The notes beneath the pieces are model-generated. The model did no database searches, had not been told where the DNA came from, and worked only from the letters and a program-made list of their open reading frames with translations. Below, one piece after another: positions 9,908 through 59,200 of a DNA stretch of 64,000 bases. The stretch comes from Bacteroidota bacterium. Its GTDB lineage: Bacteria; Bacteroidota; Ignavibacteria; OLB7. The position numbers were made by a program, and so were the translations under genes. Numbering within the stretch: position 1 is the first letter of the stretch; the number at the start of each line of letters is the position of its first letter. The stretch is from the NCBI GenBank assembly GCA_018266795.1, contig JAFDZV010000027.1, positions 1-64,000 of the forward strand, written 5' to 3'.

Positions 9908-10045
9908 ACAGCCCACGTCGCAACCGGATTGTACTTCAGGAACCTGCGGGGTGTTGTCCTCTTCAGTTCGGCTGTTCCTGCAACTGACCAGGAACTCTCG
10001 GCGAGCCAACGGCGGCGTACATGGAATCAGGCTACCGGTTACCAG
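9908..10045 (-). repeat. dispersed intergenic repeat, copy A (inverted)
   Basis: Read on the minus strand this matches copies near 20261 (B), 40197 (C) and 24793 (D). Shared blocks are GGCTCGCCGAGAGTTCCTGG and GTTGCAGGAACA with CCGAACGGAAGAG-like sequence after it. The core GTTCCTG...CAGGAAC forms a 7-bp stem with an 8-base loop. It occupies most of the gap between the AHSA1 gene and the membrane protein gene, separating two halves of an otherwise compact module. Confidence 0.75.
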
Positions 10046-10112
10046 AGCCAGCCGAGAACGTGTTCAATCTTTTGGCTGCAACCCTTATCAACAACATGGA
10101 GGCGCTGATCGA

Positions 10113-10664
10113 ATGAAACGAATACTCCTTGGCGGAATCCTGGGCGGCGTAACGCTCTTTGCGTGGTCGTTCCTCTCCTGGATGATTCTTCCGATGCACG
10201 ACTCGTCGTTGCGGGACTTCACGGACGACGGTGCCGTCGCCAGGGTTCTTCTTGCAAACGCTCCGGAGTCAGGCGTATACCACCTTCCGGCCATCCGTGA
10301 CCGAGTGGGGGAGTCGCATGATGCTGCAATGGAACGCATGACAAAGGGGCCGCACATGCTTGCGGCGGTTCGTCTCGGCGATATGAGCAGCGGCGAGTTC
10401 GGAACGCTCTACGGCCTGCAAGTACTGTTCATGATCCTGACCGGCTGCATGATGGCGTGGTTGCTCACGCGCACAACCGGCCTGGGGTATCTCGGCTCGG
10501 CATCGTTCCTTGCCGTGGTTGGTGCCGTTGTTGCGGTAACCGCCGACTTGCCGAACTGGAACTGGTGGGGATTCTCGCTCCCCTTCACGATCGCCTATGT
10601 GGTGGATCACATCGTCGGTTCATTCCTTGCCGGGCTGGTGATGGCCAGGTTCGTGAAGACTTGA
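10113..10664 (+). CDS. integral membrane protein of unknown function
   Basis: About 183 residues. One N-terminal membrane helix (ILGGVTLFAWSFLSWMILPM) is followed by an extracytoplasmic stretch of about 85 residues and then three further helices, including YGLQVLFMILTGCMMAWLL and FLAVVGAVVAVTADLPNW. The ATG is preceded by GGAGG about ten bases away. Together with the VOC gene it continues the arsR-AHSA1 module. I do not recognise a named family, and nothing points to transport or catalysis. Confidence 0.8.
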   Translation: MKRILLGGILGGVTLFAWSFLSWMILPMHDSSLRDFTDDGAVARVLLANAPESGVYHLPAIRDRVGESHDAAMERMTKGPHMLAAVRLGDMSSGEFGTLYGLQVLFMILTGCMMAWLLTRTTGLGYLGSASFLAVVGAVVAVTADLPNWNWWGFSLPFTIAYVVDHIVGSFLAGLVMARFVKT

Positions 10665-20217: not shown

Positions 20218-20260
20218 GCCCGGTCTACTTGGAGTTCCTACCGGAGGGTCGATTAGGTTG

Positions 20261-20410
20261 TCAGCGGCCTGTTGTTACCAGGTGCCTGCTTCCTTGTATG
20301 CTCGCCCGCGGCTCGCCGAGAGTTCCTGGTCCGTTGCAGGAACAAGCCGAACGGAAGAGAACAATGCCCGCAGGCTCCGAAGTGTCGCCCGGTTTTGATA
20401 GGAACTGTCG
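20261..20410 (+). repeat. dispersed intergenic repeat, copy B
   Basis: The longest continuous copy. It opens with TCAGCGGCCTGT, shared exactly with copy C, and contains GCGGCTCGCCGAGAGTTCCTGG and GTTGCAGGAACA. It ends with CCGGTTTTGATAGGAACTGT, which has partial matches in copies A and C. The core GTTCCTGGTCCGTTGCAGGAAC is a 7-bp hairpin with an 8-base loop. It sits directly after marR, in the convergent gap before lgt. Confidence 0.75.
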
Positions 20411-24081: not shown

Positions 24082-24764
24082 CCAGCGAATCGGGCAACGG
24101 CATGATCGCGGGCGAGAGCGATCACGGGCATGGCGAGCATCACGTACATGGGATTATGCAAGAAGACCCCTCGGCAAAAACACCGGTGCTCCGCCGGTAC
24201 AACACGGAGCGCATGGTAGAGCTTGTTCGCGAAACACTGGTGCTGATTGGCGAGGACGTGCATCGCGACGGCCTGGTACGCACGCCGCAGCGCGTTGCGC
24301 GCGCGTACGAGTTCCTTACGCAGGGCTATGCGATGGATATCGCGGAGGTGCTGAACGGCGCCATCTTCGCCGAGCGCTACGACGAGATGGTGGTGGTGAA
24401 GGACATAGATTTCTTCTCGCTGTGCGAGCATCACATGCTTCCCTTCTTCGGGAAGGCTCATGTTGCCTACATCCCCAACGGAAAGATTGTCGGGCTCTCG
24501 AAGATCCCTCGCATCGTGGATGTCTTCGCGCATCGCCTGCAGGTTCAGGAACGCATGACGCTGCAGATCGCGGAGACCATCCAGAAGTATCTGCAGCCGC
24601 AGGGCGTTGCCGTGGTTACCGAGGCAAGCCACATGTGCATGATGATGCGCGGCGTGGAGAAGCAGAACAGCGTCACCACGGCCAGTGCGATGCTTGGCGT
24701 GTTCAAGCATCAGGTGGAGACGCGAAGCGAGTTCATGAATCTGATTTCCAGCCGTCTGCACTGA
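24078..24764 (+). CDS. folE: GTP cyclohydrolase I
   Basis: Converts GTP to 7,8-dihydroneopterin triphosphate, the common precursor of folate, pterins and queuosine. About 228 residues. The zinc site CEHHM starts at Cys116; the second ligand Cys is in the SHMCMMMRG segment. The fold core [21 protein letters not shown] is standard. About 40 N-terminal residues precede the usual start and include a His-rich stretch, [10 protein letters not shown], which might bind metal; a start within this tail cannot be excluded. It overlaps the PTPS gene by four bases. Confidence 0.95.
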
Positions 24765-24792
24765 AGGCCCTGCCAACGGGCCGGTCGTGTTA

Positions 24793-24880
24793 TCAACGGC
24801 GTCCGGTAACCGGCACCCCGGTTCTTTGTACGCTTGCCGGCGGATCGCCGAAGTGCCTGGCCAGTTGCACGGAAGGCCGT
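24793..24880 (+). repeat. dispersed intergenic repeat, copy D (diverged)
   Basis: Shares GGTTCTTTGTACGCT with copy C. It then reads TCGCCGAAGTGCCTGG and CCAGTTGCAC, matching the family core with changes on both arms: GTGC pairs with GCAC where other copies have GTTCCTG with CAGGAAC. It lies in the folE-rnhB gap. Confidence 0.6.
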
Positions 24881-24927
24881 AGAAATTTTGACGGCCTCTC
24901 CTCACTCTCAATTCTGGAAACCTGCTG

Positions 24928-36184: not shown

Positions 36185-36227
36185 TGCCCTCCAACGTCCG
36201 GACGTGCGGAACGGCGGCCGGGCCCCG

Positions 36228-36301
36228 GGGCGACGGGCCCCGGGCGACGGGATCCGGGGCGACGGGATCCGGGGCGACGGGATCCGGGGCGACGGGATCC
36301 G
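36228..36301 (+). repeat. 15-bp tandem repeat, four perfect units plus one degenerate
   Basis: The unit GGGCGACGGGATCCG is repeated four times without change, preceded by a degenerate unit reading GGGCGACGGGCCCC. The period is a multiple of three and the surrounding frame is open through to the cytochrome start. It begins 44 bases after the terC stop. Confidence 0.9.
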
Positions 36302-36576
36302 GCCAGGGGGCGGGCCCTGGAAACGAGACGCCGCAAACCCGCATTCGATCATATCGCGTTGCGATGCGTGCTGCACGTGAAGGCTCGCAGTGCGATATCG
36401 CTTCCAGCTCATCCCCCGCTGTTGAAGCCGGCTCGTGCATAGTTCGGCTCTTTGTGTATCTTCGCACCATCCCAATTCCTCATACCCCTCGTATCGTTTC
36501 GTCCAAGTCCATCGATCGGCGGGCTGTTGCAGTGGGCCGCCGCATCGTGCCCCTTCCAACCCTTCGAGGGAAGCAC
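36302..36576. other. leader region of the multihaem cytochrome
   Basis: About 275 bases between the tandem repeat and the cytochrome ATG. The frame is open throughout, in the same phase as the cytochrome, back to an ATG that overlaps the terC stop. No other structure was seen. Confidence 0.5.
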
Positions 36577-40166: not shown

Positions 40167-40196
40167 GAGTTCCGAACAACACGGCCTCGAACACCA

Positions 40197-40325
40197 TCAG
40201 CGGCCTGTGGCAACCAGGCGTCCGGTTCTTTGTACGCTCGCCTGCGGCTCGCTGTGGTCCTTGGTCGGTTGCAGGAACAGACCGAACGGAAGAGAACGAC
40301 CCCCTGCCGGTTTCCGATGCCGTTT
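40197..40325 (+). repeat. dispersed intergenic repeat, copy C
   Basis: Opens TCAGCGGCCTGT exactly as copy B, then GGTTCTTTGTACGCTCGCC as in copy D, then GTTGCAGGAACAGACCGAAC. It begins 30 bases after the carbonic anhydrase stop. A segment at 40517-40536, CGGGTTTTGGCGGGAACTGT, matches the far end of copy B, as if this copy had been split. Confidence 0.75.
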
Positions 40326-40897
40326 TCCGACGTGCATCGCGGTGGTGATGGGAACTCCAGGACACTGTCCGTTGCGGGTGTGCGATCGTTCGGCCCTGCG
40401 ATGGCTCGCCGACCTGCGATGGTTCGATCCGGTGGCCTGCGTAACGGCGGGCGGAGCTGCGGATGTAAGGGTCTTGGCATTCGGTGCTGCAAGGCCTGCA
40501 GGCTCTGATGCGCATTCGGGTTTTGGCGGGAACTGTAACTCGTGGTGTCTTGGATCGGGCGCCTTGTCGTACTCCGATCCCATTTTGCAAATTTGCCGAA
40601 CGCATTCTCGCGACCATGCCTGTCATGCCGAAACGCGTGTGAACGGAGGTGGATGGAAGGCTGGGGCGCGGAACGGATGCGACAGAATTCAGGACAATGC
40701 CGTCGGCCCCACTTAGGCTGACGCGAGGCCGGCTGGGAGCGAGAGCGCAACGCGCGACTCCTGGTCGGCCTCCTCGTTTTCCGGCCGGCCGAAAGCGGGC
40801 GGCCGTCGCGTAAACGATGCGCCGGAAATCGTTAACATGCTGCCCGGTTCCCGCCTGCATCGGGATGATCCATGGACACTTCCTTCGGGCACTCGCT
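40326..40897. other. intergenic region with repeat fragments
   Basis: About 570 bases without a supported gene. It holds the displaced repeat fragment at 40517-40536 and a GTCATGCCGAAACGC mini-repeat-like sequence near 40622. No clear terminator or promoter was found. Confidence 0.45.
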
Positions 40898-56239: not shown

Positions 56240-59200
56240 TCAGCGTACCACCCGCATGGCTGCAATCAATGCACGGTGGGCAAGCTTCACACGGCAGAAG
56301 TAGAGGCCGCTTGCAAGTCCGCGCGTATCGATGGCGATCTGCCGACGACCGCCGGGCAGCATGCCCAGGCGCTGGCTTCTCATCATGTCCCCACGAGCGT
56401 TGACGATCTCCACGTCGGCCTCGGATGCGGATGCGAGGATGATCGTCAACTCGGCGCGGTCGGCAACGGGGTTCGGGCGCACATCGAGTTCCTCGCCCGC
56501 GGCAACCCCGGTTACCGGAACGCCGCTTCCATCGCTCAGACGTACCACCAGCCCGGAGGTCTGCTCGCACCCGGCCTTCTGCGTCGTCAGCACGCTCACG
56601 AATCCGTCACCATCCGTGCCCCAGTCCACCGTAATCGCGGGCGTTCCCTGGCCGGAGATAATGGTGCCGCCGGAGACGGTCCAGTTGAATGTGGTGGCGG
56701 AGGAGTCCGGCACCGAATAGACGGCGCCAGTTGCTCCAAGCATTACCACGATGGGGCCGGTGATCGTCGGGGCGGGAGTGCCGAGCGCCGCCGGACCGGC
56801 GGATGCTGCGGGAGCGTTGCGGAGAATTCCGTCGTGACCAAACCCGCTGAGATCGTGCACGATGCTGTCGGTGCCTCCGTCGAGTGCCCAGTATCCGATC
56901 AATCCGGACTGCGGGCCGGCAAGCCTGCGGTACATGTTCTCGCGGATGGCTGCCTGCGTGCGTGCCGTGTTCCAGACCCGGAAATCGGTAATCCGGCTCT
57001 TCTGGAAGCCAGTGCCCCCGCGTGCTCCGCCGATGGTGAGCCCCTTGCGCGGCCAACCCGGATGATGTGCGATGGTACCGGACCCTGCAAGTCCGCCGTT
57101 CAGATAGATCGCCTTGAAGTCCTTCCCGTTCGACACCATCGCCACATGCGTCCACTTGCCCAGATAGGGACCGTAGTCCACGGCGATGCGTCCGTTGGTG
57201 GAGATATTGCCGAAGTCGAAATACAGCTGCTTGTCACCCCATGGCGCATGCGAGCTGATGCGCGTTGTGCTGTCCGCCGCTGCGGTGAAGAAGCCCCAAC
57301 AGTTGCGGACGTCGGTGGAGTCCACATACAGCCACCACTCCACCGTGACGGCGCGTCCCTTCCACTCGAAGTCCGGGATCTCCACGTCGTTGTCCACGCC
57401 GTTCAGCGACGGTGCGACCACGGCACACGGCGTTCCCGTTGTGAAGGCTATTACCGAAGACCATGGCCCCATCTCGGAGGCATTGATTGCGCGAACACGT
57501 GCATGGTAGTTACGGCCGCCAAGCAGGGCTCCGTAGAGATGCGAGGTGCCCGGAATGTTCGGGACCGACACCTCCGGCGCGGTGAAATCGGTGGTGCCGG
57601 AAATCTGAAGTTCGTATGCATCCGCGCCGCCAACCGGCGTCCATGAGAACTGCGTGTACGGCGAGGAGGGAATGGTAGCGGCGTTGGCGGGCGCAACGAA
57701 CGCCGGAGCGCCGAGCGAACTGTTGTCGGCGCAGTTGATCGGTGCACCGGAGCGAATCCATGTCGGATTGTTCTGGAGGATCGCAGCCGGAGGCGCGATG
57801 CCGTTGGCTATGCCGCCCTGCCCCTCGTCGAACTTCCAGTACCCTGCCAGACCGGGTGTTGCTTCGCCGGCGCGGGACATGTCCCGTTCGATCTCCTCCT
57901 GCGAACGAGCGCTGCTCCAGATACGGAAGTCGTCCATCGCTCCCTTGTGCTTGTACGTGACGGCGGCATTGCCGCCAATCGTCAGCCACTTCAGCGCGAC
58001 AGCCTGCGAGGCAAGCGTGTCGGACGCGGCCAGCTTCCCGTTCAGGTAGATCGCCTTGAAGTTCCGTCCGTTGGAGACCAGCGCAACATGCGTCCACTTG
58101 CCGAGATACGGCGAGTAGTCCGCCACTATGCGTCCGCTGTCCTTGTCCAGCACGCCGTAATCCCAGTAGACGTTGCGATCGCTCCATGGCACATGGGCCT
58201 GCAGCCGGTTGCGGGTATCGTCCGTCTGCCCCACACCGAATGCCGATGCATTCTGTACTTCGTCCGGCATTACATAGTTCCAGAACTCCACCGTCACCGG
58301 TCCTCCCGTCCACTGGAAGTTCGAGTCCAGTACGATGCCGCCATCGCCGTTGAAGTGAAGGGCTCCGCCGGCGCAGTTCTGCCCGGTGTTGAACTGCCAC
58401 GTCTTGGACCAGGGGCCGGTAAAGGTGTTGTTGAAAGCGCGTGCGCGCCAGTAGTAGATGCTGCCGAATGTCGCCATGTCCGCGGTTATCGGCTGCGGCG
58501 ACTGGCTCAGCCACGAGCCGAGCACGTCGGTCCCGTTCGGATCGGCGAGCAACTGTATCTGATACAGCTCCGCTCCCTTGACACTTCCCCAGAGAAGGTG
58601 TACCGGTAGCGCAACGCTGCGCGCGTCGCGTGCCGGCACGAGCAGCGCCGGCACGCGGAGCGTATCGCCGGCGACGAGCGCCATCGGGTCGGCAACCGCG
58701 GGGCCGGATGGGATGGACTCCAGGGAGTCGTTCATCGCGGTTATTGCATAGTAGTAGAGCGTATCGTTCTGAAGTCCCTCATCGACGTAGGAGAGCACAC
58801 TGGAACGGACGAGTGCGATCGGGCTCATCGCCTCCGGATCGAAGCCGCGCTCGATGCGGTACCGCGTTACGCCCTGCGTGGTGGATGGCACCCACTCGAT
58901 GGTGGCAAGGTGGTTCAGGCCGTGCGCCACCACGGTTGTCGGCGGAGAGATGCCCCCCTTCGTTACGGAGGTACGGGCAAGCGAGTCGTTGGATGGATTG
59001 CGATCGTTCGCCAGCATCGTGCGGGCGATCATGATCAGATCCCCTTCGGGCAGCATTCCTGCCTGCGGGAATGTTACCTGGCGTGTTTCGCCGGACTGAA
59101 CAACCGGAACCGTTACGGTCTTGTCGTAGACCTTCCGATCGCCGTTGCGCCAGATCATCTTCAGTTCAACGGGCAGCCCGGTGATCTGGCGCGAGCCGTT

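Follow-up and report, generated by a model that had tools for sequence, protein, structure and literature searches.

Elements of the IS427 group are similar in length to an 879-bp IS described below. They have ends of 12–21 bp, generate 2–4-bp duplications and often contain two overlapping frames (PMC3281130). The repeats that we report here share several features with ISs of the IS5/IS427 type and with the MITEs derived from ISs: short matching terminal inverted repeats, a short TNA-like target and, in the IS that has the same ends, the domains DUF4096 and DDE_Tnp_1. They differ from the ISs in that they have no transposase gene. In the openly licensed papers searched, we found no IS5-type MITE described with the stop-codon and orientation pattern reported below.

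YPAL (RU-2) and ERIC are palindromic intergenic repeats of ~127–168 bp that are co-transcribed with upstream genes, and an orientation-dependent effect has been reported for ERIC (PMC2229807). These enterobacterial repeats resemble the present family in size, palindromic structure and intergenic location. They are precedents for its position and, in the case of ERIC, for an effect of orientation. De Gregorio et al. 2006 are said to have placed YPAL near stop codons. However, YPAL has internal inverted repeats and 3–26-bp duplications, ERIC has TA ends, and neither has the ends or the target of the present family.

REP elements are associated with Y1 transposases. They are defined as palindromes of 20–40 bp with a GTAG or CGTC tag, and the ends of GTAG-REPs often provide the TAG stop of flanking ORFs (PMC3733652). 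A share of REP elements is found no more than 15 nt away from a stop codon (PMC12306157). Lying near stop codons, or providing them, is common to REP elements and to the repeats studied here. By contrast, REP elements are much shorter and are without terminal repeats of the present kind, shared with an IS that encodes a DDE transposase; the present family differs from them in both length and ends.

Copies in the window

The window is the whole stretch of 64,000 nucleotides that we analyzed, from a genome of the class Ignavibacteria (contig JAFDZV010000027.1, positions 1 to 64,000). A preliminary description had reported four related intergenic repeats in it, one of them inverted. All four exist at about the places given, all are intergenic and copy A is indeed inverted (Table 1). 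The extents, however, had been drawn too short: the copies are longer and have terminal inverted repeats that had not been seen.

Table 1 Positions of the repeats and related features (window coordinates unless a locus is named)
Feature	Position	Strand	Description
Copy A	9909..10084	-	~176-bp class, right end degenerate; model match 9927-10088, right end placed visually, by comparison with that of the IS type
Copy B	20232..20407	+	176-bp class; ends GAGTTCCTACCGG...TTGATAGGAACTG; flanks TTG / TCG
Copy B core hairpin	20322..20343	+	GTTCCTG-GTCCGTTG-CAGGAAC, seven Watson-Crick pairs; core of the preliminary description
Copy C	24764..24900	+	~137 bp, decayed; matched by the covariance model
Carbonic anhydrase stop codon	40164..40166	+	TAA; 5′ TNA target triplet of copy D
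Copy D	40167..40357	+	~191 bp; directly after the carbonic anhydrase (Pfam) stop
Copy D core	40257..40278	+	GTCCTTG...CAGGAAC; one C-A mismatch, one G-U pair
879-bp IS	L171:2035-2913 (G000:C3)		Single copy; TTA on both sides
68-bp family member	L175:1939-2006 (G000:C11:36438-36505)		

Copy A is located 46 bp past the stop of an AHSA1-domain gene (Pfam) that reads into its 3′ end, and 28 bp ahead of the gene start at 10113. Copy B lies 14 bp past the stop of a MarR-family gene (Pfam); scans around this copy found no sigma-70 promoter and no intrinsic terminator. The first base of copy C completes the TGA stop of a GTP cyclohydrolase I gene (Pfam), and an RNase HII gene begins 27 bp after the copy. 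Matches to the GTP cyclohydrolase put the host near Ignavibacteria/Bacteroidota. At the orthologous site in G001, a genome of the same genus, the element is absent and the intergenic stretch is ~125 bp shorter. The earlier remark that the repeats usually come just after a stop holds for copy B and, at the stop codon itself, for copies C and D, and it describes the key feature of the family genome-wide.

Repeats of other kinds also occur in the window. At the start of a 3-kb gene, a 15-base unit (GGCGACGGGATCCGG) is repeated in tandem (36213–36302). A 119-bp repeat (57079–57197 and 58021–58139, 942 bp apart, 78% identity) lies inside a reading frame of 1671 aa.

Family size, ends and distribution

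The 5.97-Mb genome was searched with a covariance model built from 14 well-bounded copies, which at E<1e-5 detects 96 copies, almost every one of them along the whole model (positions 1–162). With copy B alone as the query, blastn finds ~40 genomic places at E<1e-8. The preliminary description had named a lack of further copies in the genome as one outcome that would refute it; with 96 found, it is not refuted on this count. The median identity of the copies to the consensus is 75%.

The aligned copies have sharp ends, with CTNA immediately followed by GAGTTCCTGACAAAAGGCC on the 5′ side and TTTGTCAGGAACTC immediately followed by (T/C)NAG on the 3′ side. Their terminal inverted repeats are ~14–17 bp long, with GAGTTCCTGACAAA... 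at one end and TTTGTCAGGAACTC at the other. The commonest length, measured from GAG to CTC, is 152–157 bp. A second class of ~172–180 bp, which includes copies A and B, carries ~21 additional bases ahead of the right end. A third class, of ~228–233 bp, contains copies whose internal loop is longer. Searching the genome for the terminal-repeat pattern gave 42 sites, compared with 1 for the reversed control. No coding frame was seen to be kept across the copies, which stand between intact genes.

Under strict filters, the covariance model had zero matches among 40 relatives, including G001. When G001–G004 were searched with lax filters, weak matches appeared in G001 only (E-values of 0.0017 for a partial match, 0.015 for a full-length match and 0.94). 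One stretch of 128 bp that weakly matches the model in this genome (L296, G001:C2:249473–249600) has end-like sequences on both sides and is possibly a relic of a related element. In six relatives the terminal-repeat pattern is mostly at the level of the control; G002 is slightly higher (10 vs 3). The exact 29-base core is absent from GTDB species genomes, and Rfam models at gathering thresholds have no match in the window. As far as we could see, the family is undescribed, while being in itself ordinary mobile DNA.

Insertion target and candidate partner

The flanks, CTNA on the 5′ side and (T/C)NAG on the 3′ side, correspond to a CTNAG-like target. The 3′ flank mirrors the 5′ target, and the consensus is palindromic. 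The middle base of TNA agrees on the two sides in 19 of 43 copies (12.6 expected, p=0.02), and agreement over all three bases has p=0.07, a signal that is weak after decay. There is no signal of longer target duplications (9 bp). The orthologous genes in G001 are without the element and, at ~72–76% identity, too divergent for base-exact empty junctions.

We found a single-copy 879-bp IS of the IS5 family, in the same genome and with the same ends as the repeats; it is bounded by two of the 42 terminal-repeat sites. Its transposase matches DUF4096 and DDE_Tnp_1 above cut-off and is thus a DDE transposase of the IS4/5 type. By our own reading, the transposase ORF ends early and its last part is apparently in another frame, a change that may be programmed or may reflect decay. 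On length and architecture alone, the IS would belong to the IS427 group. Its left end is similar to that of the elements, departing from the consensus at two positions over 18 bp, and its right end, CAAAACCGG, is like those of the 176-bp class and of the 68-bp elements described next. Beyond the ends, the likeness is short. Among 294 genomes of the class, the transposase was detected in this genome only, with no close relative elsewhere. The IS is likely to be the surviving partner of the miniature elements, or a relative of that partner.

A sister family of 68-bp elements has the same terminal repeats. It occupies at least 39 places in the genome, some of them partial, and its copies are 74–90% identical. 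At one locus (G000:C26:157540–157771), a 68-bp element immediately adjoins the end of a long one, as if the earlier insertion had restored a target that the short element then used.

Association with stop codons

Genes were called with a simple hexamer-based caller. At the 5′ end, 29 of the 47 genes that read into an element stop no more than 3 bp from it, mostly at precisely 0 or −1 bp; at the 3′ end, the corresponding figure is 1 of 52 (Fisher p=1.2e-11). Among copies with good ends on both sides, the corresponding counts are 17/25 and 0/28 (p=3e-8). Approximately 30% of the ~96 copies sit precisely where an intact gene has its stop codon, essentially in one orientation, and two thirds are elsewhere. 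Since 31 of the 339 intergenic TNA sites in the window are stop codons, chance would place around a tenth of insertions there, split over two orientations.

The genes that adjoin elements at their stops include those for GTP cyclohydrolase and carbonic anhydrase (Pfam). Others, recognized by their C-termini alone, we take to be Era, GroEL, YajQ, RimO and SerA. Some nine clear orthologues in G001, among them those of Era, GroEL and GTP cyclohydrolase, have no element and yet terminate at the same residue. The insertions are therefore at the stops of intact genes. A few other G001 orthologues differ by some residues, and terminator-like hairpins follow several orthologues. Truncation of genes by the insertions was considered as a cause of the stop-codon pattern and is rejected where the orthologues are clear, since these terminate at the same residue. 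Where a gene stops with TAG, the element often begins with the G of that codon.

Gene starts that face away from the element lie within 4–60 bp of the 5′ end in 19 of 47 cases and of the 3′ end in 4 of 43.

Given that the target consensus is palindromic, the target sequence is not expected to produce the orientation bias. In the 68-bp family, copies at stop codons occur in either orientation (2/10 and 4/15, which are small numbers). These two observations favor a loss of copies oriented the other way, or selection against them, over directed insertion, and we hold with moderate confidence that such loss or selection is the most likely source of the bias.

RNA secondary structure

The preliminary description saw a conserved stem in the core GTTCCTG/CAGGAAC and suggested a structured mobile or RNA element. 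The stem is present in copy B, where all seven pairs form, but it is broken in copy C and has a mismatch in copy D. The assertion that copy D changes both arms while keeping the pairing is mistaken: the right arm is unchanged, and one pair is a broken C-A and another a G-U.

The family consensus folds as one long hairpin (−78 kcal/mol, z=−6.9). Single copies, however, fold barely better than shuffled sequences (mean z about −1.1 to −1.5), as would be expected of a decaying palindromic transposon, and the stop-adjacent copies fold no more strongly than the rest. In an alignment of 96 distinct rows, 75.4% of cells are paired, as against 73.5% after shuffling, and there are 113 double changes, as against 82.7 in shuffles; kinship of subfamilies can produce an excess of this kind. 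Because the supposed change in copy D is wrong, the covariation slight and the folding of single copies weak, a conserved RNA character of the family is not established. What stands of the earlier suggestion is mobility, which is supported by the inverted repeats, the target, the same-ended IS and the element-free orthologous sites.

Origin of the family and alternative explanations

The repeats are very probably a non-autonomous MITE family of the IS5 family, IS427-like group, that is old and decaying. The 96 discrete copies, their conserved ends, the same-ended IS, the target flanks, the element-free orthologues in G001 and the 68-bp sister family all point to this origin. A transposase of the IS5 kind would have recognized the GAGTTCCTGACAAA ends, and the elements would have inserted at CTNAG-like sites, probably duplicating TNA, as the weak agreement between flanks suggests. 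The stop codons TAA and TGA, and TAG with a G supplied by the element, fit this target. Insertion at a stop would spare the upstream protein and turn the element into 3′ untranslated sequence. The family would have spread in the present lineage and decayed since. From the shared ends, we infer past activity and mobilization by the transposase of the 879-bp IS or a related one. Several points count against a MITE origin. Only one related IS is left, with the last part of its transposase in another frame, which makes it no more than a candidate for the working partner. The signal of target duplication is weak, the likeness of IS and elements past their ends is short, and G001 is too divergent for base-exact empty sites. 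The basic mechanism, moreover, does not explain the orientation bias.

The bias would be explained if the repeats were functional 3′-UTR RNA elements, retained at stop codons for the effect of their sense-strand hairpin on how stable the upstream mRNA is, how it terminates or how it is translated, in the manner of ERIC, YPAL or REP. This explanation is compatible with a MITE origin. The stable consensus hairpin and the slight excess of covariation agree with it, and at several loci the element lies between the stop codon and downstream terminator-like hairpins. ERIC, moreover, acts on the upstream mRNA in an orientation-dependent way (PMC2229807). However, the hairpin decays, single copies at stops or elsewhere fold barely above shuffles, and two thirds of the copies are not at stops. 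We therefore consider such a function unlikely. Domestication of an IS5-type MITE into a portable 3′-UTR module, in which sense copies act on the upstream mRNA or on termination, is quite improbable.

The exact position at stop codons and the strict orientation could also arise if the transposition machinery inserted the long element in a single orientation after stops, for instance because it is coupled to the termination of transcription or translation. Directed insertion of this sort is distinctly unlikely in view of the palindromic target, the small sample of 68-bp elements found at stops in both orientations, and the majority of long copies located elsewhere.

High-copy palindromic extragenic repeats near stops, with an orientation bias and a weak duplication signal, might suggest REP-like palindromes that depend on a Y1 (RAYT) transposase for their movement, or else a transposon of the single-strand type that inserts 3′ of CTNA. 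The report that GTAG-REP ends supply TAG stops to flanking ORFs is in line with this idea (PMC3733652). Yet the terminal inverted repeats are shared with an IS that has a DDE transposase, the 3′ flank mirrors the 5′ target, and a length of 150–232 bp is far from the 20–40 bp of REP elements, so that we regard this explanation as highly improbable. Finally, chance similarity or gene remnants, for which we found nothing in favor and the latter of which the preliminary description had rightly rejected, are refuted by 96 copies with fixed ends at E<1e-5, the lack of a kept coding frame and the intact genes around them.

Conclusions

The position of these probable MITEs at stop codons, in one orientation, amounts to a clean natural experiment, in which a target of the IS5 type coincides with stop codons. 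It allows a test of how mobile repeats come to lie at the ends of genes, a position that was known before for REP elements. If the improbable domestication as a 3′-UTR module were true, a stop-matching transposon target would have seeded a genome-wide post-transcriptional layer across dozens of unrelated core genes.
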